Below are positions 5,521 through 45,781 of a DNA stretch of 64,000 nt, in pieces. The notes under the pieces were generated by a model that saw only the letters and a list, made by a program, of their open reading frames with translations, was not told the origin of the DNA and ran no database searches. How positions within the stretch are numbered: position 1 is the stretch's first letter; every line of letters starts with the position of its first letter. The translations under genes and the position numbers were made by a program. The stretch spans positions 1 to 64,000 of the forward strand of contig CANGKZ010000028.1 of NCBI GenBank assembly GCA_947454705.1. Direction: 5' to 3'. The DNA comes from Verrucomicrobiota bacterium (GTDB taxonomy: Bacteria > Verrucomicrobiota > Verrucomicrobiia > Limisphaerales > UBA9464).

Positions 5521-7566
5521 TCAATCCAATGCCGCCCGCATCGCTGCAAACCAATCGCCTCCCGATTCGCTCGCCACGGGCTTGCTTGAGGCGGCATCCG
5601 CATCCTCGACGCAATCTGGAGGCAACTCCTTGAGGAACGGCGAGGGATGGCAGGGCAGGAGCTGGCCGTATTTCTTTCGGGCGGCGCAGTGGGAAAGTCG
5701 AAGGGTCTCCTGCGCGCGGGTGATTCCCACGTAAAACAGACGGCGCTCTTCATCCATGGTCCCCTCCACCTTAGATCGGGAGTGGGGAAGGAGACCATCT
5801 TCCAGTCCCACGATTTGGACGTGCGGAAACTCGAGTCCTTTGGCGGCGTGGAGCGTGATCAGGGTCACCCCGTCGGTTTTCTCATCCTCCTCCCCGCGAT
5901 CGTTGTCGAGGGTCACCTTTTCCAGATATTCCGTGAGACGGTCCAGCGGGGTGCCTCCGCGGGCGTCCTCCAGTTCGGCATCCAGATTCGAAATGATTTC
6001 CCGCAGGTTTCGAATGCGGTTCTCGGCCGCCTCGGCGTTTTTTTCCTGACGGGTCAACTCGGCCACGTAGCCGGTCGCCTCCAGCCACGCCTCGGCCCAG
6101 GAGCCAAGTTTCAAGGTCTCGTTCGATTCCAGCGGCTGCCGCGTTTCCTCGATGAATCGCAGAAAGGTTCGGATGGCCTCCCCGGTGCGGGCCTGAAAGC
6201 CTGACTGCACGTCTGTGTGGCGCATGACCGCGAACACGCTGCAGTTGCGCTCCTGGCTCGCACCCAGAATTCGCTCCATGGTGACGTCGCTCAATCCGCG
6301 GGCCGGCGTGTTGGCGATCCGGAGCAGGCTGACGTCGTCGTGAGGGTTGATGAACACCCGCATGTACGCGAAGAAATCGCGGATTTCACGCCGATCAAAG
6401 AAGCTCTGTCCGCCAATGAGGCGGTATCGGACCTTGGCTTTGCGCAGGGCGGTTTCGATCGGACGCGCCTGAAGGTTGGTTCGAAACAGGATGGCCTGCT
6501 GCGTCCAGGGAATGCGCCGGGCAATCCGGTCGTATTCCAGATTCTCCACCACCACCCGGGCTTCCTCTTCATCGTTGGTGAAGCACTGGAGCTGGATTTT
6601 CGCCCCGTCCCCCTTCGACGACCAGAGCTGCTTGCCGCGACGGCGCGTGTTGTTGGCGATGACCTTGTTGGCCGCCCGCAGGATGATGTTGGTGGAGCGA
6701 TAATTCTGCTCCAGTTTCACCACCTTGACCTCCGGGAAATGCTTTTCGAGGTCCAGAAGGTTGGCGATTTCCGCACCGCGCCAACCGTAGATCGATTGAT
6801 CGTCGTCACCCACCACACAGAGGTTTCGCGACACCTGGGTGAGGCGGTTTACCAGCTCGAACTGCGCGGCGTTGGTATCCTGATACTCGTCCACCATGAC
6901 GTATCGATACCGCGCCCGGCACGCCTCCAATGCGTCTTCATGTTCCCGAAACAGCCGGAGCGTCAGCAGGATCAAATCATCGAAATCGACCGCATTACAG
7001 GCTCGTAAGGCCGATTCGTATCGAATGGAAACATGTTCCGCGAGGGCCCTGACATTTGGGTCCTGGAAAGCCGCCGCCCGCGATCCGCCGTTCCGGAACT
7101 GGCTTAGCAGGGAAAGCACCGCGGCGGGATCCGAGTTCGGCCCCTTTCCGGAAATCGCGGAAAGAATCTTTCGCACTGCTCCCAGCTGGTCGGACTCGTC
7201 GAAGATGACGAAGTTCTTCTTGTACCCCAGTTTCTCGATGTGCATGCGCAGGATGCGAACGCAGAGCGAGTGAAAGGTGCAGATGGTGGGGCGATCCGAG
7301 CCCTTCTCGATCTTTTCTCCGGAGTCCTGACGGGATTTTGGCTTCGGAAGAAGTTCCCGGACACGGCTTTGCATCTCCTTCGCCGCCTTGTTGGTGAAGG
7401 TCACCGCCAGAATGTTTCCCGGCGGAATCCCTTTCTGGACCATGGAGGCGATCCGGTGGGTGATGACCCGGGTTTTGCCAGTTCCGGCGCCCGCAAGGAT
7501 CAAAACAGGCCCGGAATGCGTGACAACAGCGGTTCTCTGCTCAGGGTTGAGGCCGGTCGGATTCAC
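5521..7566 (-). CDS. UvrD/Rep/PcrA-family 3'-5' DNA helicase
   Basis: Superfamily I ATP-dependent DNA helicase for repair or replication restart. All family motifs are visible in order: Q-motif and Walker A (LNPEQRTAV, then AGAGTGKT), Ia (VTFTNKAAKEM), Walker B (VMVDEYQDTN), III (VGDDDQSIYGWRGA), IV (KLEQNYRSTN), V (VTLITLHAAKGLEF), VI (FYVGITRAQ). At 681 residues it is close to Rep size, shorter than many PcrA/UvrD proteins, with a short C-terminal tail. The start is GTG at 7566, preceded by an AAGAAGA stretch that can serve as ribosome site. It is the first gene of the run with trmB. Confidence 0.95.
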   Translation of the reverse strand: MNPTGLNPEQRTAVVTHSGPVLILAGAGTGKTRVITHRIASMVQKGIPPGNILAVTFTNKAAKEMQSRVRELLPKPKSRQDSGEKIEKGSDRPTICTFHSLCVRILRMHIEKLGYKKNFVIFDESDQLGAVRKILSAISGKGPNSDPAAVLSLLSQFRNGGSRAAAFQDPNVRALAEHVSIRYESALRACNAVDFDDLILLTLRLFREHEDALEACRARYRYVMVDEYQDTNAAQFELVNRLTQVSRNLCVVGDDDQSIYGWRGAEIANLLDLEKHFPEVKVVKLEQNYRSTNIILRAANKVIANNTRRRGKQLWSSKGDGAKIQLQCFTNDEEEARVVVENLEYDRIARRIPWTQQAILFRTNLQARPIETALRKAKVRYRLIGGQSFFDRREIRDFFAYMRVFINPHDDVSLLRIANTPARGLSDVTMERILGASQERNCSVFAVMRHTDVQSGFQARTGEAIRTFLRFIEETRQPLESNETLKLGSWAEAWLEATGYVAELTRQEKNAEAAENRIRNLREIISNLDAELEDARGGTPLDRLTEYLEKVTLDNDRGEEDEKTDGVTLITLHAAKGLEFPHVQIVGLEDGLLPHSRSKVEGTMDEERRLFYVGITRAQETLRLSHCAARKKYGQLLPCHPSPFLKELPPDCVEDADAASSKPVASESGGDWFAAMRAALD

Positions 7567-7917
7567 AGATTCTTCTTGCGTCGAGCCCGGAAGAATCCGC
7601 TAAAGTCCGACCGCAGCAAGCCTTGTATGGAAAAAACCTACAAAGCCCCCCCGACGGTCCTGAGTTTCCCGGTTAAAATAATCTCCGGTCAAGTCCAGAG
7701 GTGGTTTTATTTTGGGAAAAATTGTACCAGATTTGGTGCAGTTAATTCACTGGGTGGCCCCAGGGTCGAAGCGAAGTTTTCGGTAGCAGTATCGGATGGC
7801 GCGGATGATTAGCGAATAGGGTGAATCCCTATCGCGGTTAGGGTTGGTGGGAGTGCGTGTCTGATGTATCAAATTTGAAACGGAAGCGGGCGCTAAGATT
7901 TTATCGGAAAATTCCAT
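7567..7917. promoter_or_regulatory. divergent intergenic region with inverted repeats
   Basis: This 351-bp gap separates the helicase gene (leftward) from the first PEP-CTERM gene (rightward). It contains TGTACCA-N4-TGGTGCA (7723-7740), a triple arrangement TAGGG (7817-7821), CCCTA-N7-TAGGG (7827-7843), then TGTATCAAATTTGA (7865-7878), whose last ten bases are a perfect palindrome. Similar words precede other PEP-CTERM genes in the window. I see no clear -35/-10 pair and no -24/-12 (sigma-54) box. Confidence 0.5.
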
Positions 7918-8571
7918 ATGAACTTGAAATCGATTTTTGTCACGGCGGCAGCAGCGGCTGCTCTCTCTGTCCCGGCGATGGCGCAGATTTACACCGTTGG
8001 CAGTGCCGGTGCTAATGCCAATTCCCCGGCGGGTACTTACGGTATCACGTTTGTGGTCAATGCCGGGGCGGACCTCTCGCTCACGAGTGTCGGTCTGTTC
8101 GACTACGGTACCTATGGTGTCGGAATTGGTACGATCAACCTCTGGAAGGATGGAGATGTGACTCCGACCTTCTCGACCACCATCGACCTCGAAACCCAGG
8201 GCTCCAACGCTTTTGATTACATCATGAAGAGCATCACCCCTGTCGCTCTTCAGGCAGGATTTGAATACGCCTTGGTCTGGCAGAACAACACCGGTTCCAC
8301 CACCCAGCCGTACGCCAACGGCGGTGTGACTCAGGATTCGACCGGGGCTTACAGCAAAATCACTCCGACCCACATCTTTAATCTGACGGGCACTCCGTTC
8401 GATACGAACCCGTTGAACACAATCGCGTCGCTCTCGACCTACAGTGTTCCCTACGCCAGCGTGAACATGATCTTGACCGACAATTCGGCGGTTCCTGAAC
8501 CTTCCGAATACGCTGCGGTTGCCGGTCTCGGATTGGTGGCCTTCGCTGCCTTCCGCAAGTTTCGCCGCTAA
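7918..8571 (+). CDS. PEP-CTERM sorting-domain protein (paralogue 1)
   Basis: Small secreted protein of 217 residues. Residues 1-22 form a Sec signal peptide ending AMA-Q. The body is a beta-rich domain with the pattern GTYGITFVVNAG, SVGLFDYGTYG and INLWKDGD. The C-terminus has the exosortase sorting signal: VPEPSEYAAV, a hydrophobic segment and the basic tail FRKFRR. In PEP-CTERM systems such proteins are cut by an exosortase and delivered to the envelope or to exopolysaccharide. No exosortase is in this window. The next gene (8715) encodes a clear paralogue. A strong terminator follows at 8591-8622. Confidence 0.88.
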   Translation: MNLKSIFVTAAAAAALSVPAMAQIYTVGSAGANANSPAGTYGITFVVNAGADLSLTSVGLFDYGTYGVGIGTINLWKDGDVTPTFSTTIDLETQGSNAFDYIMKSITPVALQAGFEYALVWQNNTGSTTQPYANGGVTQDSTGAYSKITPTHIFNLTGTPFDTNPLNTIASLSTYSVPYASVNMILTDNSAVPEPSEYAAVAGLGLVAFAAFRKFRR

Positions 8572-8590
8572 TTTTTAGCCGCCCTCTTCA

Positions 8591-8622
8591 AGGCGCGTCC
8601 CTCACGGGGCGCGCCTTTTTTG
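8591..8622 (+). terminator. rho-independent terminator
   Basis: Stem AGGCGCG / CGCGCCT with a 12-nt loop, followed by TTTTTT, 20 bp after the stop of the first PEP-CTERM gene. It separates the two paralogues into independent transcripts. Confidence 0.85.
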
Positions 8623-8636
8623 CGTTTTCAGCCGAA

Positions 8637-8674
8637 TTTGGCATCCCCCTGTGCGCGTAGTGCACTTTGCCAAA
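8637..8674 (+). promoter_or_regulatory. inverted repeat TTTGGCA/TGCCAAA
   Basis: Perfect 7-bp arms TTTGGCA (8637-8643) and TGCCAAA (8668-8674) enclose CCCCT-N7-TAGTG (8646-8662), a weak version of the CCCTA-N7-TAGGG arrangement seen before the other PEP-CTERM genes. It lies 41 bp upstream of the start at 8715. Operator function is inferred. Confidence 0.45.
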
Positions 8675-8714
8675 ATGTTGGAAAGTTTGATAGGAGTCCT
8701 GGCGAGACTCCAAT

Positions 8715-9356
8715 ATGAACAAAAAACGACTCTTCATCGCCCTCGCTGCTTCCATCTCAATACGCGGCGCCGCACAGGTTTATACTCTTTCAGGCGCTGC
8801 CGGTACCGGGGATTCAAACCCCAACACCTACGGCGTAACCTTCACTCCCAGCGTTCCGGTCACGATTTCGGACCTCGGTGCTTTTGTGTACGGCACCTAC
8901 ACCTCCGGCGATATCGCGATCTCCATCTGGAAGCAGGGGGACACGGTCGCCCTTTCGACCACGACGCTGCACATCAACCAGGCCCAGAACTACAACGGGT
9001 TTAACTTCGTCTTCGATAATGCCGATCTCGGGGGATCATTTGCTCCCGTCAATCTCGATGCAGGTATTCGTTACGCGGTGGTCCTGACTCCGAGCGGCGG
9101 GACTTTCTACCGGGCGCCTGGCACCTACATTACCCAGACCCCGGCAGCTTCTGGAATCAATCTGGACGGCATTTTCAATCCCGGCAGCGTGTTCACCACC
9201 AACCCCTTGGCCACGACTATCTCGACCTATTCCACGCCGCCCGGAGGGGTGAATTTCATCGTGGCTCCCACACCGGTCCCGGAACCCTCGGGCTTGGCCG
9301 CAGGAGCGGCACTCGGACTCACCGCCTTCGCGGCGTGGCGCAAGGTCCGTCGCTGA
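8715..9356 (+). CDS. PEP-CTERM sorting-domain protein (paralogue 2)
   Basis: Secreted protein of 213 residues, paralogous to the product of the gene at 7918: compare NTYGVTFTPSVPVTIS, LGAFVYGTYTSG and ISIWKQGDT with the corresponding segments there. The N-terminal signal peptide is short (MNKKRLFIALAASISIRGAAQ) with a less hydrophobic core than usual. The C-terminal signal is VPEPSGLAAGAALGLTAFA followed by WRKVRR. Function is unknown; carbohydrate or matrix association is only inferred from the sorting signal and from the glycosyltransferases downstream. Followed by a perfect terminator at 9376-9403. Confidence 0.87.
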   Translation: MNKKRLFIALAASISIRGAAQVYTLSGAAGTGDSNPNTYGVTFTPSVPVTISDLGAFVYGTYTSGDIAISIWKQGDTVALSTTTLHINQAQNYNGFNFVFDNADLGGSFAPVNLDAGIRYAVVLTPSGGTFYRAPGTYITQTPAASGINLDGIFNPGSVFTTNPLATTISTYSTPPGGVNFIVAPTPVPEPSGLAAGAALGLTAFAAWRKVRR

Positions 9357-9375
9357 TTCGACTTCTCTTTTACAG

Positions 9376-9403
9376 GGCGCGGCCGAAACTGGCCGCGCCT
9401 TTT
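9376..9403 (+). terminator. rho-independent terminator
   Basis: Perfect 9-bp stem GGCGCGGCC / GGCCGCGCC with a 6-nt loop and TTTT, 20 bp after the stop of the second PEP-CTERM gene. Confidence 0.88.
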
Positions 9404-9471
9404 CGTTTCTATTCTGGAACGAGGCGCACACTTGCAGCGGTTTGACACTCACTGAGGACATGGGCGACTGG

Positions 9472-10587
9472 ATGCCGAGAGTTTTGATTTTGCCCTCCTC
9501 CCTGTACTCCCGTCATCGGACGATCGGAGGAGGGGAGCGTTACGCGCTGGAGTATGCCAGGGCTCTCGCGCGGCATGTTCCGACGACGCTCGGATTGTTT
9601 GACCTGACCGATTCGGTTGCCCGCGATGGTTCGCTCGAAATTCGGAATTTCCCGCTGCGGAATTTTTCCGATCAGTGGGGCTTTCCCGCGACTCCTGCGG
9701 CTTTTCGAGCGATGGGGGCGTTCGACGTTGTTCACGTCATGTGTTTCCCGACGTCGTTGTCCGAAGCTGCCGTACTGCTGGCGCGGTGGCGGAAGCAGAT
9801 CTCGGTGCTCACCGATGTCGGGGGCGGGGGGAGATCACTGAGCGGTTACCTCGGGCGAATCTCCTCCCGGATCGATCTTCATCGATGTGCCGACGGGCTT
9901 GCCCATTTGTCTGGATACGCCGGCACATTCTTCGGTTCCTGGAAGCATCCGCAGACGGTGCTCTATGGGGGGGCCGACTGTGACAGTGTTGTGGCTCCCT
10001 TTACCGGGGGGCACGCCCTGTTCGTGGGGCGTCTGCTGCCGCACAAGGGGATTTTGAATGTCATCCGATCGTTGGATGCCTCCACACCGCTTCGCGTGGT
10101 GGGACGGCCGTACGACATGGGATATTTCGATCAGCTGCGGGCGGAGGCTTCGGGAAAGCAGATCACCTTTATTACCGACGCCTCCGATGCGGACATCCGC
10201 CGTGAATACGCGGAGGCGAGTGTGGTGTTGCAGCCTTCCATTCCCCGGCCGTCGGAGGCGGGTGACAAATCTGAGTTGCTTGGGTTGGTGGCGTTGGAAG
10301 GCATGGCAGCCGGGCGTCCAGTGGTGGTGACGCGCACAACCAGTCTTCCCGAGCTGGTGGTGGACGGAGAGACCGGCTTCGTTGTGCCTCCGAATGATCT
10401 TGAGGCTTTGGGATCGAGGATCCGGCAATTGGTGGGCAATCCGATCCTGGCGGAGCGGATGGGCCGGAAGGCGCGCGAACATGTTCGAACCAATTTCTCC
10501 TGGGACACCGTGGCCCTGCGCGGTTTGACCTTCTACCGCTCCCTTCAGGCGTCGGGACGCGGACGGGCGAGCCTGACTCCGCGATGA
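9472..10587 (+). CDS. family 4-like glycosyltransferase (GT-B fold)
   Basis: Probably transfers a sugar from a nucleotide donor to a lipid-linked or polysaccharide acceptor at the cytoplasmic membrane face. The N-terminal domain begins MPRVLILPSSLYSRHR; the C-terminal donor-binding domain shows ALFVGRLLPHKGIL, the GPSEAG-like PSEAGDKSELLGLVALEG (EX7E-type motif) and GETGFVVPPND. The ATG at 9472 is chosen because it places the first strand at residue 3; ATG 9460 is possible but has only a 1-nt gap from the GAGGA stretch (9454-9458). It is the first of three glycosyltransferase genes linked by 4-bp ATGA overlaps, which implies translational coupling. Confidence 0.88.
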   Translation: MPRVLILPSSLYSRHRTIGGGERYALEYARALARHVPTTLGLFDLTDSVARDGSLEIRNFPLRNFSDQWGFPATPAAFRAMGAFDVVHVMCFPTSLSEAAVLLARWRKQISVLTDVGGGGRSLSGYLGRISSRIDLHRCADGLAHLSGYAGTFFGSWKHPQTVLYGGADCDSVVAPFTGGHALFVGRLLPHKGILNVIRSLDASTPLRVVGRPYDMGYFDQLRAEASGKQITFITDASDADIRREYAEASVVLQPSIPRPSEAGDKSELLGLVALEGMAAGRPVVVTRTTSLPELVVDGETGFVVPPNDLEALGSRIRQLVGNPILAERMGRKAREHVRTNFSWDTVALRGLTFYRSLQASGRGRASLTPR

Positions 10588-11720
10588 GCCCAAGGCTGCA
10601 AGTTGCCCTGATTTCCAGTGGCCTCGGCAGGGAGCTTCGGGGAATCGAGACCTGGATGGCGGATCTCGCCGCGCATCTTCCGGATTCGGTGTCGGCAAAA
10701 CTCTGGGGCGGGGGATCTTTCGTTTCGCCGCGCCCGGACCGGCCTTCGCAACGAATCTGGGGAATCAGTCGAAACCATCGACTGCTCCGATCCAAATCCT
10801 GGAGCGACCGCTACTACGCCGAGCAGCACTCGGCTCTCCCGGGAGCCTTGCTTCGGCTAATACTTCAGCGACCCGACGTGGCCTACTGCGGTGATCCCGC
10901 ATTGTCGTGGAATCTGAAGCGATTTCGGAAGTGGCATCGATCTTCGGTGGTGTTCCTCAATGGGATGCGGCTCACGCCTGTTTGGTGCGCATCGTTTGAT
11001 GGGGTTCATGTGCTGGCGCCTCCCTACATTGAGGAGGCGGCACGGCTGCTCCCCGGGCAGTCGATTGACCAATTCTTTTCCGTCCCCCATTTCACCGATG
11101 TGGAGCGGTTTCATCCAGCCTCGATCGAGGAGCGTCGTGCGGCACGGCGTCAGTTTGGAATCGCCGAGGACGCGTTCGTGGTTCTTTGCATCGGTCCGCT
11201 GGGAACGGCGAGCGGAAAGCGCGTGGATCATGTCGCGGAAGAGCTCGCACGCGGATCGTCCCGTGCGCTGCTGGTGTCCGCCGGGGCGGACGAACAGGGG
11301 GCGAGCGAGGTGCGGGGGCGGATCACCCAGGCGCTTGGCCCGCGAGCGCTTCTGCTCGGGCGGGTCGAACGATCCCGCATGGCCGACCTGCACCGGGCGG
11401 CCGACGTCTTCGCCCTCGGCACGCTGGGGGAACCGTTTTCCATCGCCATTGCCGAGGCTCTGGCGAGCGGTGTTCCGGTGGTGCATCATCAGGATCCGAT
11501 CACCAACTGGGTGGCCGGTGTTGGCGGAGCTGCTGTGTCGATGTCTACGCAGGGAGAAGCGGCGGATGCGTTCCGACGCCTGGAGACGGATGCCGCGTGG
11601 CGTTCGTCGCTTGGGGCCGCTGGACGAAAGCTGGCCGTGGAGCGGTATGCACCGGGGCCGGTCTGCGCGGCCCTGGAGCGCGAGTGGCGGCGGATCGCGC
11701 TGAGGACTTCCTCCCGATGA
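10584..11720 (+). CDS. glycosyltransferase, GT-B fold (second of three)
   Basis: 378-residue predicted glycosyltransferase. The N-terminal acceptor domain starts LQVALISSGLGRELRGIE; the C-terminal domain has VVLCIGPLGTASGKRVDHV, an arginine-bearing LLLGRVERSRMADLHRAAD and the donor-site motif LGEPFSIAIAEALASGVPV. Its ATG overlaps the stop of the previous gene (ATGA at 10584-10587) and its own stop overlaps the next start (ATGA at 11717-11720). Substrate cannot be told from sequence. Confidence 0.87.
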   Translation: MSPRLQVALISSGLGRELRGIETWMADLAAHLPDSVSAKLWGGGSFVSPRPDRPSQRIWGISRNHRLLRSKSWSDRYYAEQHSALPGALLRLILQRPDVAYCGDPALSWNLKRFRKWHRSSVVFLNGMRLTPVWCASFDGVHVLAPPYIEEAARLLPGQSIDQFFSVPHFTDVERFHPASIEERRAARRQFGIAEDAFVVLCIGPLGTASGKRVDHVAEELARGSSRALLVSAGADEQGASEVRGRITQALGPRALLLGRVERSRMADLHRAADVFALGTLGEPFSIAIAEALASGVPVVHHQDPITNWVAGVGGAAVSMSTQGEAADAFRRLETDAAWRSSLGAAGRKLAVERYAPGPVCAALEREWRRIALRTSSR

Positions 11721-12850
11721 TCGTCGCGTTCCTCAATGAGAACACGCTCGGCCACACGAGTTACCTTCCGCGCTTTGCGTCGGAACTTCGACGAAGGCCC
11801 GAGCTAGGCATTGAGCCGCGTCTGCTCGACGCGTTGCCACTCCCGCAGGATTTGGTGCGTCTGGGAGACACTTCGATCCGCGGCTTGAGGAAGTTCGGGT
11901 TGGATTTTCACAGCACCCGATGGCGCATCGCCACCAGCCGGCATTTGCGACGTCAGCTGGATGCGCTTCGACAACGCGAGAAGGTGGATGCGGTGGTGCT
12001 GAACACCCAGAGCATGGGGCTCGAGCTTGAGGGGCTTGATCGATCCGTGCCGGTGTTTGTGGGGTTGGATGCGACATTCCAACAACTCGCGGCTTCGCCC
12101 TGGTTCGCGCCGAACCTGATGTCGCGATGCCTCCAGCCTCTCACATTGGCCCGGCTGCTGCGGCTCGAACGCGTTTTGTTCTCCCGGACCCATCGATTCC
12201 TCCCGTGGTCCGTACCGGTTAAGGAGGCGCTGATTCGAGACTATGGAATCCCGACTTCCCGCATCTCGGTGCTGCCGCCGTCGATGACGGCTCCGCCCCG
12301 TCGTGCGACCGGAGGGAAGGGGGGCTCGAAGCGTCCGCGACTGTTGTTTGTGGGGGGCGACTTCTTGAGGAAGGGTGGTGATTTGCTCCAGCAGTGCCAT
12401 CGACGCTACCTCGCGGATCGCTGCGATCTGGTGATGGTGACGCAGGCAACGATTGAGGCCGGTCCCCATCAGTCGGTGCGCCGCGGTTTGATCGCCGGCA
12501 GTGCGGAATGGCGTGAATGTTGGGAAACGGCGGATGTGTTTGCATTTCCGTCCCGTCTGGAAACGTTTGGAATCGTGCTTCTGGAAGCGCTCGCGTTCGA
12601 GGTTCCGATTGTCTCCTCTCGAACCGGGGCTGCGGTGAGTTTGCTGGGGGACGGCCGGTTTGGAACCCTTTTGGATTCGGTCAGCGTCGAGTCGCTGAGG
12701 GATTCGATTCTGGCGATTCTCGAATCGCCGGATCTTTCCGAAAAACGATCCCGCCAGGGCCGGGAATGGTTTGAGCGTGAGTTTGAACTCGGCCTGAACA
12801 CCGAGCGCCTTGCCGGATGGCTGCATGACGCCGCGGGGATGCGACGCTAG
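11717..12850 (+). CDS. glycosyltransferase, GT-B fold (third of three)
   Basis: 377-residue predicted glycosyltransferase of GT4 type: MIVAFLNENTLGHTSYLPRF at the N-terminus, RLLFVGGDFLRKGGDLLQQ at the start of the donor domain, and ADVFAFPSRLETFGIVLLEA carrying the conserved glutamates. The start at 11717 is set by the ATGA overlap with the preceding gene; the open frame extends upstream only as a shadow. It ends with a TAG stop, showing that TAG is a normal terminator in this genome. The trio probably assembles one oligosaccharide or exopolysaccharide unit. Confidence 0.88.
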   Translation: MIVAFLNENTLGHTSYLPRFASELRRRPELGIEPRLLDALPLPQDLVRLGDTSIRGLRKFGLDFHSTRWRIATSRHLRRQLDALRQREKVDAVVLNTQSMGLELEGLDRSVPVFVGLDATFQQLAASPWFAPNLMSRCLQPLTLARLLRLERVLFSRTHRFLPWSVPVKEALIRDYGIPTSRISVLPPSMTAPPRRATGGKGGSKRPRLLFVGGDFLRKGGDLLQQCHRRYLADRCDLVMVTQATIEAGPHQSVRRGLIAGSAEWRECWETADVFAFPSRLETFGIVLLEALAFEVPIVSSRTGAAVSLLGDGRFGTLLDSVSVESLRDSILAILESPDLSEKRSRQGREWFEREFELGLNTERLAGWLHDAAGMRR

Positions 12851-12862
12851 GCGTTGCCCGGG

Positions 12863-13495
12863 CTAGGTCGGCTCTTCGCCGAGTTCGACGTTCCAGTAGG
12901 CGAGGTCGAGGAAATGCCGCCAGCTGTCGTGCATCTGCACTCCGAAATTCACCTGCACGAACGGACGCCACTTGGGTCGCTTCGGCTTGCGGATGAGCCG
13001 CATACGGGCTTCATGCGGCGTCTTGTTTGCCTTGTGTGTGTTGCAGGGAATGCAGGAGCAGACGATGTTTTCCCACGTGGTCGGACCGCCGCGATCGCGC
13101 GGAACCACGTGGTCCAGATTGAGGTCCTTCCGATCCAGCACCTGGCCGCAATACTGGCAGGTGTTTTTATCCCGTTCGAAGATGTTGTGGCGGGTGAACT
13201 TAACCTCTTTCTTGGGAAGCCGGTCGAAGGCGAGCAGCAGGATGACACGCGGAACGCGGATGCGGTAGGAGACGGTTCCAACGGTGTCGTCCTCGGGCTG
13301 GCGATCCGAAAAGTCGCGCCATTCCCCGAAGCCATAGGTTTTGAAATCCCCGTCTCCATTGCCGAAGACGACCTGTGCGTGGCCCTCGAAAAGCAACGTC
13401 AGTGCCCGACGCACCGAGCAGACATTGACGGCCTGCCACAGGCGGTTAAGCACGAGAACGGGCTGATTGAGTGCTAGACTCACAGGGATCTCCAC
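12863..13495 (-). CDS. HNH endonuclease family protein
   Basis: 210-residue protein with a C-terminal HNH domain: NTCQYCGQVL (first zinc knuckle), LNLDHVVPRDRGG (catalytic DH), WENIVCSCIPCNTHKAN (second knuckle and N/H positions). The N-terminal half (NQPVLVLNRLWQAVNVCSVR) is typical of the housekeeping-like HNH family found as single genes in many bacteria, whose cellular role is not known. The start is GTG at 13495. It is convergent with the glycosyltransferase operon, with 12 bp between the stops. Confidence 0.85.
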   Translation of the reverse strand: MEIPVSLALNQPVLVLNRLWQAVNVCSVRRALTLLFEGHAQVVFGNGDGDFKTYGFGEWRDFSDRQPEDDTVGTVSYRIRVPRVILLLAFDRLPKKEVKFTRHNIFERDKNTCQYCGQVLDRKDLNLDHVVPRDRGGPTTWENIVCSCIPCNTHKANKTPHEARMRLIRKPKRPKWRPFVQVNFGVQMHDSWRHFLDLAYWNVELGEEPT

Positions 13496-13544
13496 GCCGG
13501 GCGCACGAGTTACCCGAGAGACCGTGTGAAGTCAACGGTGTGAC

Positions 13545-15275
13545 CTATCTACGCTCAAGAATTCCTTCGAGAAGCAGGCGTTCCTCGGCTTTGAGACGTT
13601 CGATCGGGATTTTGGAGGCGGTCCGTCGTGCCGCGGGCATTTGTCCTCCGGCGTGAAGCGTGGCCGCATAAACGGCCCGCCAGCGTGGCTCCTGCGCGTT
13701 CCAGTCGATGTCGCCTGTTTCGCATAGGGTAAGGGCTTCGGCGCCTTTCCCGAGTCGAATCTTCACCAGGGCCAACGCGGCGCGGTATCGAACGCTGGAG
13801 AGATCGTGGGTGAGAAGCGCGGTGAGTTGTGATTCCGCATCGGCCAGCCGTTCGTTGAACAACCCATTGAGGTACGCGTGTTGGAATCGAACTTCGGGCT
13901 GCTGTCCAAGGGGGGCGATGAGTTGTCGATACACCTTCCGCTCGAGTTCGAGGTTGTCCTGGGTGCGGGCCTGTCGAAGGAGGATTGCTGCGGTGGGGAC
14001 GACGGTTCCCGGGTTGTTGAGAAGTCCGTCCCAAAGCTCCGAGGCCAGGGCGGGTTGTCCCATTTGTGAGGCAAACACGGCGACCTGTTGGACGAAATCC
14101 GGGTTTCCGGCCGCGAATTTTCCAGCTTCGCGGAGCAGCGCGGACGCCTCGTCCCGCTTGCCGGTTCCGAAGGCGTGCACGGCGCGCAGGCAGTGCAGGG
14201 CGACCCGGTTCACGGGAAGTTTGGGCTGGTTGACCAGTGCCTCGAGCTCGCTCCATCGGTGAAGATCGGCGAGCAATTCTCCACGAGCCAGGGTCAGGCC
14301 CGCCGCCGTGCGGGCCCGCTCCGCAGGGACCAACTGGAGGGCCGATTCATAGAGCTTTCGTGCCCGCAGCCACTCGACGACGGCCACCACATCTTCGGCC
14401 GAAGCCTCCTTGGGCATCTGGTCAACCAACTTCCCGGCCAGGTCCAACCGGCGTTTTGGGTCCAGAAATTCGCGCGTTTCCGCGGCAAGGAGCCGGTCCG
14501 CGATGGATGGAACCGATTGCCCTTCAAGAACCGCAAGAGCCGAGCGGGTCTCCTCCGGGGTTACCCCGCGAACCATCAGAAGTGTCCGAACCGCCGCCAT
14601 GCGTACTGAGGAGTTGCCGGCGATCAGTTTCCGCAGAAGCTCAACAGCTTTGGCCCCATTTGCGGGTATCCCGGTTCCGAGGTAGGCCCGGGCGAGCATG
14701 AACTGCAGCTCAGTGTCCTGAGGAAATGCCTTCAGTAGCGCCTCGGTGCCGGTGACGACCCTGGGCCACTCGCCGAGTCGCACCAATTGATCGAGCACCA
14801 GCACTTGATTAGTGCGATTTTGGGCGTCCTCGGAAATCAGCTCCTGGATCAACTGTCCCGAGAGGTCGAGGCGTTCCAGATTCTGGCAAAACCGGGCAAA
14901 CTCCTGCCGGTCCGCCTGCGTGGCCTGGCCGGACTTCATCAGCAGCTCCCAGTAAGACACCCCCTCCGGCTGGCGTGTTCGGGCGCAGTATTGTCCGGCG
15001 AGCCGCTGAACCTCGGGAACCCCTGGCGCGAGCTCCACCGCTGCGCGGACGGCACGCGAAACCGCCGGCATATTGTTGGTAGCCAACGCCGCCTGCGCCT
15101 CGCTGACAATTCGCTTAGCCCTCCAGACCTTTACCTTTCGATAGGCCGGCCCGGCGGACATCCAAAGGCCCACCGAAATCATGGCCAAAAGTGCGATCCC
15201 AATCATGAACGGACGCGACTTGTCCTCGAAAATGGGAACCCGGTCTGAAGCGGGTGATTGAGAAGTTTTCGGCAT
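13545..15275 (-). CDS. membrane-anchored tetratricopeptide-like protein
   Basis: 576-residue protein beginning MPKTSQSPASDRVPIF at the ATG at 15275. One transmembrane helix lies at about residues 21-40 (FMIGIALLAMISVGLWMSAG). The rest is a long array of helix pairs rich in A, L and R (for example EAQAALATNNMPAVSRAVRA and LEALVNQPKLPVNRVALHCL), typical of degenerate TPR repeats in a periplasmic or cytoplasmic scaffold. No enzymatic motif is visible. Its promoter region was split by the IS element: the IS left end begins 62 bp upstream of the start codon, and the next rightward gene encodes a PEP-CTERM protein. A role in the same envelope system is only an inference. Confidence 0.72.
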   Translation of the reverse strand: MPKTSQSPASDRVPIFEDKSRPFMIGIALLAMISVGLWMSAGPAYRKVKVWRAKRIVSEAQAALATNNMPAVSRAVRAAVELAPGVPEVQRLAGQYCARTRQPEGVSYWELLMKSGQATQADRQEFARFCQNLERLDLSGQLIQELISEDAQNRTNQVLVLDQLVRLGEWPRVVTGTEALLKAFPQDTELQFMLARAYLGTGIPANGAKAVELLRKLIAGNSSVRMAAVRTLLMVRGVTPEETRSALAVLEGQSVPSIADRLLAAETREFLDPKRRLDLAGKLVDQMPKEASAEDVVAVVEWLRARKLYESALQLVPAERARTAAGLTLARGELLADLHRWSELEALVNQPKLPVNRVALHCLRAVHAFGTGKRDEASALLREAGKFAAGNPDFVQQVAVFASQMGQPALASELWDGLLNNPGTVVPTAAILLRQARTQDNLELERKVYRQLIAPLGQQPEVRFQHAYLNGLFNERLADAESQLTALLTHDLSSVRYRAALALVKIRLGKGAEALTLCETGDIDWNAQEPRWRAVYAATLHAGGQMPAARRTASKIPIERLKAEERLLLEGILERR

Positions 15276-15328
15276 AAAACAATGAGAACCTATCGGTAAA
15301 ATGGGGGGCTTTTGAACCCCCAAAATTC

Positions 15329-15336
15329 CCCTAGGG
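15329..15336. repeat. target-site duplication, left copy
   Basis: CCCTAGGG directly abuts the left end of the IS element and is repeated at 16751-16758. 8-bp duplications are usual for IS256-family transposition. The target is itself a perfect palindrome and is part of a CCCTA-N7-TAGGG box. Confidence 0.85.
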
Positions 15337-15378
15337 TGCCGGTGTAAGAACCTTTCTGTAAATTGCTTTCCGACTGCT

Positions 15379-15452
15379 CCTCCCCCCTGAGGGTGAGGTG
15401 GAGCGAAGGCGAGCGTAGCGAGCCGAGCGGAACCGAACCCTCAGGGGGGAGG
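15379..15452. repeat. 16-bp perfect inverted repeat inside the IS leader
   Basis: CCTCCCCCCTGAGGGT (15379-15394) and ACCCTCAGGGGGGAGG (15437-15452) can form a very stable stem around a 42-nt loop rich in GAGCG/GAGCC repeats. It lies 80 bp before the transposase ATG, where such a structure could limit translation or transcription entering from outside the IS; that role is inferred. Confidence 0.75.
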
Positions 15453-15532
15453 CCGCGAATCGGTTGTCGTAGGTGGGCCAAGAGGGGCCTGTGTTGGGGT
15501 GTTCAACAAAAACATCCTTCACCCAAGTCCCC

Positions 15533-16714
15533 ATGACCCACCCGGAAAACGCTGACATCCTCTCCACCGTCGTGCAACTGCTCACCGAACAAGGCTCCGC
15601 CGGCTTCGCCGAGGGCATCCGCCTGCTCGTCAACGAAGCCATGGTCCGCGAGCGTTCAGCGGCGTTGCGCGCCGAGCCCTACCAGCGTTCAGAGTCCCGG
15701 CTGGGCCATTCCAACGGGTTCAAGGACAAGACCCTCTCCACCCGCGTGGGGAAGATCACCTTCGACGTGCCGCAGGTCCGCGGTGACCTCGGCTTCTATC
15801 CCTCCGCCCTGGAGAAGGGCATCCGCAGCGAACAGGCCCTCAAGGTCGCTCTCGCCGAGATGTACGTCCAGGGCGTGTCCACCCGCAAGGTCTCCGCCAT
15901 CGTCGAGCAGCTCTGCGGCACCTCCGTCAGCTCCTCCCAGGTCAGCGCCTGCGCCGCCAAGCTCGACGCCGAACTTTCCCTCTGGCGTGACCGGCCCCTG
16001 GGACCCACGCCCTATGTCTTCGTCGATGCCCGCTACGAGAAAGTCCGCCATAACGGCCATTTCATCGAATGCGCCGTCCTCATTGCCCTGGGCATCGGCG
16101 TCGATGGCAGACGTTCCATCCTCGGGGTCAGCGTCGCCCTCAGCGAGGCCGAGGTCCACTGGCGGCAGTTCCTCGCCACCCTCCAACGCCGTGGCCTCAC
16201 CGGCGTCACCTTGATCGTCAGCGACGACCACGCCGGACTCAGGGCGGCCCGTGCCGCGGTCTTCCCCTCCATCCCCTGGCAACGCTGCCAGTTCCATCTC
16301 CAACAGAACGCCTAGGCCTACGTCCCGCGCCTCGACCAGCGGGCCGCTGTCGCCGAAGCCGTGCGCGGCATCTTCCTCAGCTCGGATCTCCCCGCCGCAC
16401 AACGCCGCCTCAAAGAGGTCGTCGCCGGCTACGCCGGCACCCACCCGAAGCTCGCCTCGTGGATCGAGGAGAACATCCCCCAGGGCCTCACCGTCTTCGC
16501 CTTCCCGGTCGCGCACCAAAAGCGCCTCCGCACCACCAACGCCCTCGAACGGATCAACCAGGAACTCAAACGCCGCACCCGCGTCGCCCGCGTCTTCCCC
16601 AACGAATCCTCTCTCCTCCGCCTCGTCTCCGCTCTCCTCGCCGAGATCTCCGAAGATTGGGAAACCGGAAAAATCTACCTCAGCATAGTCTCCTCATACC
16701 CGCCTACGACCTGA
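15533..16714 (+). pseudogene. IS256-family (Mutator-type) transposase, amber-interrupted
   Basis: The frame reads from ATG 15533 to TGA 16714 (393 codons, normal IS256 length) with a single in-frame TAG at 16313-16315, in the context CQFHLQQNA-stop-AYVPRLDQ. The corresponding residue in relatives is usually a polar or aliphatic residue; CAG to TAG is the simplest change. Catalytic residues are all in place: D165 (FVDARYEKVR), D231/D232 (IVSDDHAGL) and, after the stop, E339 (NALERINQELKRRTRV), giving the DD-(107)-E spacing of the family. The stop separates the glutamate from the aspartates, so a truncated product would be inactive. No frameshift is needed to restore the gene. Confidence 0.88.
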
Positions 16715-16750
16715 TGCCCGCAGAAATTACAGAAAGAAAATTGCGCGGCC

Positions 16751-16788
16751 CCCTAGGGTCGTTAGGGTTGTCTCATTATTGGTACATT
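16751..16788 (+). promoter_or_regulatory. CCCTA-N7-TAGGG box and TTGGTACATT word
   Basis: CCCTA-GGGTCGT-TAGGG spans 16751-16767 and is followed by TTGGTACATT at 16779-16788, 45 bp before the PEP-CTERM start at 16834. The first eight bases are the right copy of the IS target duplication. The box has the same arms and spacing as 7827-7843 upstream of the gene at 7918. Confidence 0.5.
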
Positions 16789-16833
16789 GGAGTACAAAAT
16801 CAGGGTCGGTTGAACCTGCCCGTTGGACACCCC

Positions 16834-17703
16834 ATGAAACGCCGCCAAAGCACCCTGATTTTTCTCGCTGCCTCTGCTGTCACCTTGACCCCGGCCTGGG
16901 CGACGTACATGAACGTCACCGACTGCCCCTACTGCCAGACCTTTGACACCCTGGCTCAGTCGGCCACGGCCACTTGGCGAAATGACATGACCGGTGCCAT
17001 TGGATGGTTCATTCAGTCGGCTGCCTCCAACCTCAGCGGCAACGGAAGCGGCCTGACCTACACGGCGAGCACCGGAACCAGCAGCGCTGTGGGGATCTAT
17101 TCCTTCGGTAATTCGTCGGACCGAACCCTCGGTGCCATCACCGGAGCCAACGCCGTCGCCTTCGGCAACCTGCTTCGCAACAACACCGCTTCCGCGATCA
17201 CCTCGCTCACTATCAGCTACACCGGCGAGCAGTGGCGTTCGGCAAGCACCTCGCCCCAGTCGATTCTCTTCAGCTACGCGGTGGCTGCCGGCACCGTTGG
17301 CACCTTCTACGACGTGGATGGCATCGGCGCGAAGGCCTACCTGTCTCCGACCGTGACCTCTGGGTCCGATGCCTCGGGCGACAACAAGGGATTGACCTGG
17401 AACTCGGTCTCCGCCGGTACCTTCACCTCTCCGAACCTCACGGGTGGTGGTGTCGCGGTGACTGCCTCCACTTCGATCAGCTTCACTCTGACCGGTTTGA
17501 ATGTCCCGGCCGGTGGCGCGATCATGCTCCGCTGGCTCGACGCGGCTAACAACACCGACGGTCTCGGCATCGACAACGTCTGCGTGTCGATCCCGGCTGC
17601 TGCTCCGGTTCCCGAAGCGAGCACCTACGCTGCGATCGCTGCGGTCGTGGGCATGGCTGGCGCTTCGGCGATCCGCCGCAAGAAGAAGTCGGCCAACGCC
17701 TGA
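16834..17703 (+). CDS. PEP-CTERM sorting-domain protein
   Basis: 289-residue secreted protein. The signal peptide is MKRRQSTLIFLAASAVTLTP then AWA-T. The body is low-complexity and beta-rich (S, T, G, A), with one CPYC pair near the N-terminus (DCPYCQTFDTLAQ) and IDNVCVSIPAA near the end, and resembles the group of extracellular proteins with repeated SGDNKGLTWNSVSAGTFTS-like strands. The C-terminal sorting signal is VPEASTYAAIAAVVGMAGA followed by IRRKKK; the PEP core is PEA here. Start ATG at 16834 follows from the signal peptide. Expression may be affected by the IS, whose right end is 83 bp upstream. Confidence 0.85.
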   Translation: MKRRQSTLIFLAASAVTLTPAWATYMNVTDCPYCQTFDTLAQSATATWRNDMTGAIGWFIQSAASNLSGNGSGLTYTASTGTSSAVGIYSFGNSSDRTLGAITGANAVAFGNLLRNNTASAITSLTISYTGEQWRSASTSPQSILFSYAVAAGTVGTFYDVDGIGAKAYLSPTVTSGSDASGDNKGLTWNSVSAGTFTSPNLTGGGVAVTASTSISFTLTGLNVPAGGAIMLRWLDAANNTDGLGIDNVCVSIPAAAPVPEASTYAAIAAVVGMAGASAIRRKKKSANA

Positions 17704-44714: not shown

Positions 44715-44746
44715 TCCTGGTACAAGCAGTCGGGATTTTCCCCTCC

Positions 44747-44787
44747 ACCCGATCCGGACCCAACGGTCCGGGTCGGGTTTCTTTTTT
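44747..44787 (+). terminator. rho-independent terminator
   Basis: ACCCGATCCGGACC / GGTCCGGGTCGGGT stem (one wobble pair) with CAAC loop and TTCTTTTTT, 32 bp after the DUF6797 gene. Confidence 0.85.
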
Positions 44788-44908
44788 GGTACATTACCGG
44801 AACGATTTGGACGACAGGCTCTAGGGGAAAATCCTAGATGCGGCTGGGTTGTGGATCATGGGAGCGAAAGAGTGTCATGTGCACACTTTGGAAGCCCGAT
44901 GTACCAAA
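44785..44908 (+). promoter_or_regulatory. paired TTTGGTACAT words and TCTAGG-N7-CCTAGA box
   Basis: TTTGGTACATT (44785-44795) and its inverse ATGTACCAAA (44899-44908) enclose TCTAGG-GGAAAAT-CCTAGA (44820-44838), a perfect 6-bp inverted repeat with 7-nt spacer, and GTGTCATGTGCACAC (44871-44885). All lie in the 149 bp between the terminator and the PEP-CTERM start at 44936, and repeat the words found before the other PEP-CTERM genes. Confidence 0.5.
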
Positions 44909-44935: not shown

Positions 44936-45781
44936 ATGGAAACAACTTTTGTATCAAAAACGAATCGCCTGCGGATCGCCGCGCTCATGGCGTTCGGGGT
45001 GATCGGTTTCGGGGTGTCGGCGCAGAATCTTTTCTCCAATCCGGGCTTTGAGCTGGGGACCGCCCAGACCTCTTCCGAGCCGACCTTCCTTGGTGGGATT
45101 CAGGACACCTTTCCGGTCAATGGTTGGGGGCTTTCTTCCTGGACGGTTGCGGCGGGTTCCAATGGGTTTCCCGAGCAATGGGTTCAGAATTACGCCCAGG
45201 CCGGAACTAAGTCGGTGTACCTGAGTTCGAGTTCCAATGTGGATGTGAGCAACGCCTGCCTTCAGTACACGGGCACGCTGAATCTCACGATTGGCGGCTC
45301 GTACACGATTTCGGCCTACGTGGCGAATGCCGGTTCCCGCTCCGGCGGTGCCGCGGGAAACGGAGCCAACGGCGATCCGGCGACTGGAACGCTGTTCTCG
45401 GGCAGCCAACCCGGTACGAGCGCCAATCTGGTGGCTGGAAAGTTCCTCTTCGAAGTCATCAACGGCGCAACCCTGACGTCCGCCACGACAATTCCGGCGA
45501 ATTCTTCCTGGAGCAACCAGTCCTCCGCCAATTCCGTCAGTTGGTCCCTGGTGAGCTACACCTTCACGGCGCAGGTGGCGAATCCCACGATTTATCTGAC
45601 CTCCACGTCGCCGGACAGCACCGGCAATCTTTGGTCCAATCTTCTCGTGGACAGTCCGTCGCTCACTGCCGTGGTGCCCGAGTCTGAAACCTGGGTCGCG
45701 GGAGCGTTCGCAGCGTCCGCGGTGGTTTGGACCGGCTGGCGTCGTCGACGCAATCCCGCCGCTCCGGCCCCGAAGGTCTGA
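44936..45781 (+). CDS. PEP-CTERM-like sorting-domain protein
   Basis: 281-residue secreted protein with signal peptide (TNRLRIAALMAFGVIGFGVS, cleavage after SAQ). The body starts NLFSNPGFELGTAQTSSEPT, the pattern of a carbohydrate-binding or galactose-binding-like beta-sandwich, followed by TGTLNLTIGGSYTISAYVAN and a later YTFTAQVANPTIYLTSTSPD. The C-terminal sorting signal is VPESETWVAGAFAASAVVWT and WRRRRN, with PES in place of PEP. Flanked by terminators, so monocistronic. Start ATG 44936; the in-frame ATG at 44987 would shorten the signal peptide. Confidence 0.82.
   Translation: METTFVSKTNRLRIAALMAFGVIGFGVSAQNLFSNPGFELGTAQTSSEPTFLGGIQDTFPVNGWGLSSWTVAAGSNGFPEQWVQNYAQAGTKSVYLSSSSNVDVSNACLQYTGTLNLTIGGSYTISAYVANAGSRSGGAAGNGANGDPATGTLFSGSQPGTSANLVAGKFLFEVINGATLTSATTIPANSSWSNQSSANSVSWSLVSYTFTAQVANPTIYLTSTSPDSTGNLWSNLLVDSPSLTAVVPESETWVAGAFAASAVVWTGWRRRRNPAAPAPKV

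Follow-up and report, generated by a model that had tools for sequence, protein, structure and literature searches.

It was in a Verrucomicrobium genome that the PEP-CTERM domain first came to notice, and the study of Haft et al. (2006), in the excerpts considered here, describes the signal upstream of such genes as proteobacterial and leaves further motifs to be discovered (PMC1569441). Its motifs 1 and 2, reported together with PrsK, PrsR and PrsT, lie in upstream intergenic regions and are common to many PEP-CTERM genes per genome, as is likewise the case for the element analyzed in this work. Inverted repeats near PEP-CTERM genes of Verrucomicrobiota are also on record, as in Akkermansia inverton group 138 (excerpt of PMC11892184). 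A further point of reference is the RcsAB/RcsAAB box of enterobacteria, a site of 14 bases (TaAGaatatTCcta) for the FixJ/NarL-type regulators RcsB and RcsA that lies near capsule and biofilm promoters (PMC4325325 and PMC5829831, in part), RcsB contacting the half-site TTAGGAA according to the relevant portion of PMC5829831. Within the open PMC literature, judged by titles and the opening of abstracts, we found no description of a box like the one reported below, and no paper on PEP-CTERM, promoter and Verrucomicrobia.

A three-arm box upstream of PEP-CTERM genes

In the window, by which we mean the whole stretch of 64,000 nucleotides analyzed, the original prediction placed two exact CCCTA-N7-TAGGG dyads before PEP-CTERM genes, and both are there (CCCTATCGCGGTTAGGG at 7827-7843 and CCCTAGGGTCGTTAGGG at 16751-16767), each directly followed by TTG and ahead of an ATG at 7918 and at 16834, respectively. 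These are the only matches to the dyad in the window with at most one mismatch, and two or more such matches were found in 1 of 100 dinucleotide shuffles. The shared box that had been proposed is real and is enriched before PEP-CTERM genes, both in this genome and in members of the same genus, but it has three arms of which the dyad makes up two thirds: the full box reads TAGGG-N5-CCCTA-N7-TAGGGTTG, with 18 arm bases, and the dyad corresponds to its middle and right arms. This consensus was read by eye from the sequences of this genome and its relatives.

The complete box lies on the forward strand at 7817-7846 (TAGGG-TGAAT-CCCTA-TCGCGGT-TAGGGTTG; 18 of 18 arm bases), from 101 to 72 bases upstream of the 7918 gene start. 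Its left arm TAGGG occupies 7817-7821, already inside the start coordinate 7817 given by the original prediction, and its core palindrome overlaps the dyad at 7827-7843, of which the promoter of the orthologue in a relative (G001) keeps CCCTA-N7-TAGGGTTG. On the same strand, the box at 16741-16770 has a degenerate left arm (TTGCG-N5-CCCTA-N7-TAGGGTTG; 16 of 18 arm bases) with the start codon 93 bases on, and that at 44822-44851 reads TAGGG-N5-TCCTA-N7-CTGGGTTG (15 of 18) with the start codon 114 bases on. The string TCTAGG-N7-CCTAGA at 44820-44838, formerly taken for a separate inverted relative of the dyad, is present but is part of this same core, TAGGG-N5-TCCTA, with a weaker third arm. A possible second, weaker core (TCGGG-N5-CCCCT; search score 4.5) was seen on the forward strand at 44730-44744, 92 bases 5' of the 44822 box, and a perfect 12-base inverted repeat (44733-44744 and 44823-44834, with 78 bases between) pairs the two; a perfect 10-base inverted repeat before the 44936 gene (44785-44794 and 44899-44908) overlaps this pair. 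The weak CCCCT-N7-TAGTG predicted before 8715 also exists (forward strand, 8646-8662), but with only 7 of 10 arm bases, and because 241 of 563 control upstream regions match equally well we regard it as background and do not count it as a box; the region upstream of the 8715 gene has no match as high as 12 of 18 arm bases.

The gene behind the complete box (7918-8571, forward strand, 217 amino acids) is assigned to PEP-CTERM by TIGR02595 (16.6 bits, cut-off 16), its PF07589 score of 18 bits being under the cut-off of 20.7. The next PEP-CTERM gene (8715-9356, forward strand) is its homologue with 43% identity, and a terminator-like hairpin of 12 pairs lies between them at 8590-8617. The gene at 16834-17703 (forward strand, 289 amino acids) encodes the tail PVPEASTYAAIAAVVGMAGASAIRRK and scores 17.4 bits with TIGR02595, over the cut-off in the genome search, and 14.8 bits with PF07589, under the cut-off; a perfect 11-base inverted repeat (16796-16806 and 16852-16862) spans its start codon and might pair in the mRNA so as to mask the start. 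For the surface protein gene at 44936-45781 (forward strand) the PEP-CTERM-like tail VVPESETWVAGAFAASAVVWTGWRRRRNP was read by eye, its product being reported neither by PF07589 or TIGR02595 at E values up to 10 nor by Pfam or NCBIfam; the orthologue in another genus member (G006:C110) is reported at 16.7 bits, under the cut-off.

The box could also be read as a core promoter, in which TAGGGTTG supplies the -35 element (TTG) of a sigma-70-like or alternative-sigma promoter and the upstream dyad is an extended element, with no dedicated regulator. In 21 sites, picked for their likeness to the consensus, GGGTTG is well kept (columns 25-30), weak preferences show at column 46 (A/T) and column 49 (T), and the spacing to the start codon would be suitable. 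However, the conservation reaches 27 bases 5' of TTG and includes an inverted repeat with a fixed N5, for which a -35 element alone is insufficient; no consistent -10 is found in the 21 sites, and a sigma-70 scan of 7570-8720 gave no site. We hold this explanation to be unlikely.

Placement and conservation of the box in the genus

Upstream regions were collected from this genome and from G001, G003, G006 and G007, not from G002, G004 and G005, using home-made rules to call genes and start codons. For this genome 46 rows were read (the 44936 gene being added by hand) and 6 left out, either for want of a usable start or upstream region (C8:532, C8:2115, C28:37063, C2:134358) or as other proteins by eye (C5:67377, C16:76974; C15:91576 never entered), leaving 40; the start of C36:19608, which has no standard start codon, was guessed, and the near-copy C65:17323 was left out of the motif searches in this genome (40 reduced to 39). 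From the 98 rows of the relatives, G007:C471 and G007:C28:3-65 (at a contig end) were removed, two others added and five skipped, which gave 93; the genes at G007:C773 and G006:C70:47995 stand outside these. Some divergent intergenic regions are counted twice among the controls, among them those of the 7817 and C3 boxes, viewed from the opposite side; the stretch L095 was chosen for holding the third dyad of this genome.

With 13 or more of the 18 arm bases matched, the box precedes 10 of 40 PEP-CTERM genes of this genome and 9 of 93 of the relatives, against 4 of 302 intergenic controls of this genome (10/40 versus 4/302, Fisher test 1.1e-7), so that it is carried by a minority of this genome's PEP-CTERM genes, about a quarter. 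The counts are 5/40, 7/93 and 2/302 at 14 or more arm bases, and 4/40, 4/93 and 1/302 at 15 or more, while the reverse strand gives 1/40 and 0/93 in this genome and the relatives at 14 or more. That last threshold is reached on the forward strand in 12 of the 133 regions of this genome and its relatives together, compared with at most 2 of 133 for any of 400 position-permuted patterns, and among the 42 spacer pairs tried (a 6 x 7 grid) N5/N7 has the highest count (12/133). The distance from site to start codon is 84-132 bases for 14 of the 20 sites with at least 13 arm bases, with extremes of 44 and 163. A matrix built from the relatives, at scores of at least 10, found 7/40 PEP-CTERM regions of this genome versus 2/302 controls (1/40 and 4/302 on the reverse strands), and the model R1, run on this whole genome, gave two matches, 7815-7846 and 44821-44853 (E of 0.08 and 0.09; 150 of 469 candidates scored), both searches being only partly held out because the consensus was the starting point of the matrix and served to select the 13 sites of R1. 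In the regions examined, then, the motif is neither at background frequency before unrelated genes nor absent before other PEP-CTERM genes. Upstream of the earlier genes in nine possible operons there was no box above 12 of 18, and around the four exosortase genes of this genome (C26:35327, C21:4095 and the pair C10:13427 and C10:15731, which are close together) no match exceeded 13 of 18. Same-strand clusters of PEP-CTERM genes were observed at C8:1-3100 of this genome and at G003:C1:103052-105411 and G003:C83:17683-20248.

Genome-wide counts put this specificity into context. The exact dyad occurs at 3 sites in this genome (5,446,992 bases, 80 contigs), the third of which, C40:16871, adjoins a gene for a receiver-domain protein and not a PEP-CTERM gene; because the reversed control pattern is commoner (8 versus 3), the bare dyad is not over-represented, and the non-randomness lies in the placement of the sites and in the longer element around them. 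The exact core TAGGG-N5-CCCTA has two places in this genome (C28:7817 and C3:162638), each ahead of a PEP-CTERM gene, and occurs at 6 places in eight genus genomes (reversed control 33), 5 of them before PEP-CTERM genes (the former two, G001:C79, G006:C110 and G006:C70:47995) and the other before a different gene (G003:C11). The product of the G006:C70:47995 gene carries LPVPEASTIVGAGALVVGVGVEFFRRRRR just ahead of its last residues, as read by eye. This stretch (L224; G006:C70, minus strand, 48009 downwards) holds a PEP-CTERM-like gene absent from the PF07589 list behind the exact core, and the third arm of the site, TGAGGTTG, stands at N8, not N7.

The three-arm pattern with up to three mismatches is found at 18 places in the eight genus genomes, versus 28 for its reversed control. 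Nine of the 18 are before a PEP-CTERM gene (7817, 16741, 44822 and C3:162638 in this genome; C255 and C79 in G001; C9 and C110 in G006; C773 in G007), none of these being in G002, G004 or G005, and one, G006:C70:75281, is before an apparent operon in which a gene for a large secreted protein is followed by a PEP-CTERM reading frame. Among the other eight are C40, C3:131831 (apparently secreted, no PEP-CTERM tail), G006:C136 (oxidase-like) and some without an evident target, such target names being assigned by eye. Because these pattern counts do not exceed those of the reversed controls, specificity rests on position. A box-like TAGGG-N5-GCTTA-N7-TAGGATTT was also observed near C1:135350 (close to 2350 of stretch L064), before a gene for an apparently secreted protein without a PEP-CTERM tail, which we take from its sequence to be exordium-like.

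Motif searches with random seeds, run with shuffled controls upstream of PEP-CTERM genes in this genome and separately in four genus mates, recovered the box through its core TAGGGaaattCCCTA. The palindrome search of the 39 regions of this genome yielded TAgGgaaattcCcTA, and not the dyad, with a score of 64.4, compared with a mean of 45.1 (highest 55.2) in 60 dinucleotide shuffles and of 25.6 (highest 36.4) in 100 control sets; one of the eight best-scoring of these 100 intergenic sets gave a weak form of this palindrome, nAGggaaattccCTn, at the low score of 32.1. In the 87 regions from G001, G003, G006 and G007 that remained after near-copies, and one region of 295 instead of 300 bases, were removed, the search used no sequence of this genome, although width and symmetry had been set after the result just described, and returned TAGGgaaattcCCTA with a score of 74.6 (12 shuffles, 33.7 +/- 3.1, highest 39.0), taken by only 41% of the regions. 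Longer or non-palindromic searches in this genome were barely or not above their controls (105.8 versus 101.6 at width 20; 143.3 versus 155.7 at width 30), and a spaced-trinucleotide (dyad) count in sequences of this genome alone showed no enrichment that survived correction for 13,088 tests. A separate element seen by eye, GTAYCAAA (for example at 44899 of the window; either strand), occurs in 6/40 regions of this genome and 11/302 controls, and was dropped because it is found in 0/87 of the relatives' PEP-CTERM upstream regions.

In orthologous promoters the arms outlast the diverged flanks and spacers in the families of 44936, C3 and 16834 and between 7918 and its G001 orthologue. The 44936 family keeps TAGGG-AA-CCTAGA-GGGTTGT in three species, with boxes before the orthologues at G006:C110 and G007:C773; C3:163480 and G007:C437 share TAGG, TCCCCTATT and CAGGTTGAG with different spacers; 16834 and its likely orthologues in G001 and G007 keep CCTAG and TARGGTTG, the left arm being lost; and between 7918 and G001:C255 the box is nearly entirely kept. 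The G006:C9 box of the 7918 family, TAGGTGATTCCCTTAGAAGCTCTAGGGTTG, was seen in the ungapped list, the automatic alignment having misplaced G006:C9. In the C4:146076 family the lattice of 22 bases seems extended downstream, with TAGGG and then TAGGAT 22 bases on.

Chance resemblance, in which a pair of similar 10-base dyads within a GC-rich window is accompanied by weaker look-alikes, would be compatible with the excess of reversed controls over dyad, core and three-arm pattern genome-wide, with two of the four predicted examples not being exact dyads (8646 being background), and with the null result of the dyad count in this genome after correction. It is nevertheless strongly disfavoured by the randomly seeded discovery in other species, by the permuted-pattern and reverse-strand controls, by the orthologue footprints, and by the placement before PEP-CTERM genes of 5 of the 6 exact cores in the genus and, with the apparent operon included, of 10 of the 18 best three-arm sites, and we judge it very improbable.

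The signal appears to have a narrow taxonomic range. Of the 60 PEP-CTERM hits in four sister genera of the family, 30 had loci; none of these 30 upstream regions matches as many as 12 of 18 arm bases, and their top palindrome differs from that of the box. The 78 genomes drawn from the order, at up to two mismatches, contain four isolated sites outside the genus versus 21 for the reversed control. The box is therefore so far known in this genus only. An exact scan of all genomes returned 4 records, the closest one identified being the Verrucomicrobia MAG contig CANGMO010000255.1.

The complementary arms also suggest an RNA switch, with two mutually exclusive hairpins in the 5' leader formed by arms 1 and 2 or by arms 2 and 3, and a few sites do change symmetrically (TAAGG..CCTTA). 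Covariation at 21 sites, a test weakened by their being picked for consensus likeness, was nonetheless not clearly above that of shuffles (0.139 versus 0.134, 210 of 500 shuffles being at least as high; 0.180 versus 0.152, 69 of 500), and there is no Rfam match in 7500-17000, so that such a switch seems to us highly unlikely. Conservation of bases without clear stem covariation fits a DNA-binding protein instead, although these sites had been selected because they resemble the consensus.

A candidate operator and its possible regulator

Taking these results together, the operator candidate is a real one at the level of the genus, and for a subset of PEP-CTERM genes its association with them is well supported. 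We propose that the element is probably an operator through which a dimeric regulator controls this subset. The core TAGGGaaattCCCTA would bind one dimer of the DNA-binding regulator. The third half-site TAGGGTTG starts two helical turns (22 bases) downstream of the first, so that a second dimer could bind alongside. The position of the box, in most cases 84-132 bases ahead of the start codon, would allow control of the promoters of this subset of surface-protein genes, and our guess for its direction is activation. A point against this reading is that the promoter analysis established neither a -10 element nor a start site. Part of this had been anticipated: the symmetry does fit the dimer originally postulated, but a regulator "dedicated" to PEP-CTERM genes is too strong a claim, as matches stand also before other genes (C40, C3:131831, C1, G006:C136).

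As for the class of regulator, the likeliest is a FixJ/NarL-type response regulator with a GerE helix-turn-helix, a tentative lead that we base on five such genes directly adjoining PEP-CTERM genes and on the resemblance of the core to the RcsAB box; the box also presents the inverted half-sites with fixed spacing expected of a FixJ/NarL (GerE) operator. A tblastn search of the genome stretches with one of these regulators found five including the query, each an immediate neighbour of a PEP-CTERM gene: C9:138582-139253 and C21:61419-62042 in this genome (loci C9:137569-139253 and C21:60412-62042), together with G001:C240, G007:C293 and G003:C77 (matched over residues 56-209 only). Four of the five are convergent with the PEP-CTERM gene, tail to tail, and one is ahead of it on the same strand. 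In the stretches searched, tblastn finds GerE response regulators in G000, G001, G003 and G007 and none in G006, whose stretches cover only part of that genome. The strict GerE sequence pattern found no match, and a looser one gave a single match in the stretches of this genome. The C9 regulator, the sole one put to Pfam, has a receiver and a GerE domain (PF00196, 60.5 bits) and an adjoining HisKA_3 kinase gene, and among solved structures it is closest by sequence to DevR, DesR and VraR, with NarL and RcsB lower.

This adjacency is a lead only, because the stretches searched are mostly centred on PEP-CTERM genes and hence favour neighbours. In addition, C9 has a single box match of 13 of 18, in reverse, and the remaining four regulator loci have none that good; such near-absence of boxes speaks against simple self-contained pairs. 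A wider and more doubtful possibility is that of a lineage-specific regulon, in which FixJ/NarL two-component systems of the genus, a part of them encoded next to PEP-CTERM genes, might read TAGGG half-sites on a lattice of 22 bases and switch some of the surface proteins sorted by exosortase; at G001:C79 the lattice TAGGG-N5-CCCTA-N7-TAGGGTTG runs further.

Comparison with known systems

The box could in principle belong to the known PrsK/PrsR and sigma-54 system, given the same class of targets, an element common to several PEP-CTERM genes and 12 matches in the genome to TIGR02915 (NtrC-type). However, 0 of these 12 is over the cut-off (best 408.9 versus 502.6 bits; genome 95.71% complete) and the sigma-54 pattern TGGCACG-N4-TTGCW, at up to two mismatches, is found in 0/40 regions of this genome, 1/87 of the relatives and 9/302 controls. 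Because there is no PrsR above the cut-off and no sigma-54 enrichment, we regard the box as unlike the system of Haft et al., in which, as far as the excerpts of that paper go, motif 1 is 17 bases long and ends in TTTACA, motif 2 is the sigma-54 -24/-12 element, and both are confined to Proteobacteria (PMC1569441); membership in that system is extremely improbable. The Desulfovibrio response regulator DVUA0057 offers a parallel in that its five predicted PEP-CTERM targets came up enriched in a DNA-binding assay, but it was predicted from the proteobacterial system of Haft et al., according to the portion of PMC3333781 considered, and the present genome lacks a PrsR above the cut-off.

A recombination site of an invertible promoter, as near Akkermansia PEP-CTERM genes, would share phylum and gene class (PMC11892184, in part) and could call on the perfect 12-base inverted repeat before 44936, but is exceedingly unlikely, as perfect inverted repeats of at least 11 bases occur in 2/40 regions of this genome, 1/92 of the relatives (the 295-base region being omitted) and 14/302 controls, no repeats surround the 7918 or C3 boxes (the 7918 region has a 10-base palindrome only), and the repeats of group 138 are widely spaced CGGATT..AATCCG motifs in the excerpt of PMC13343947, in contrast to the one compact box observed here.

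Returning to the operator reading, a described likeness is that with the RcsAB box. Compared by eye with the RcsAB consensus TaAGaatatTCcta (PMC4325325, in part), the core has similar ends, different central bases and a length of 15 instead of 14 bases, and a variant before hmsC has an extra, third half-site like the three-arm box (excerpts of PMC4325325 and PMC5829831). Our element differs in its TAGGG and CCCTA arms, in its third arm downstream at N7 and in its PEP-CTERM targets, and RcsA and RcsB were not identified here. The box would be one of the further PEP-CTERM motifs, in another phylum, and it offers a concrete operator as bait for the regulator, and thereby a way towards the signal that times the building of the surface matrix in these bacteria. 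Should the regulon outlined above be true, it would represent a system for PEP-CTERM control distinct from that of PrsR and sigma-54.
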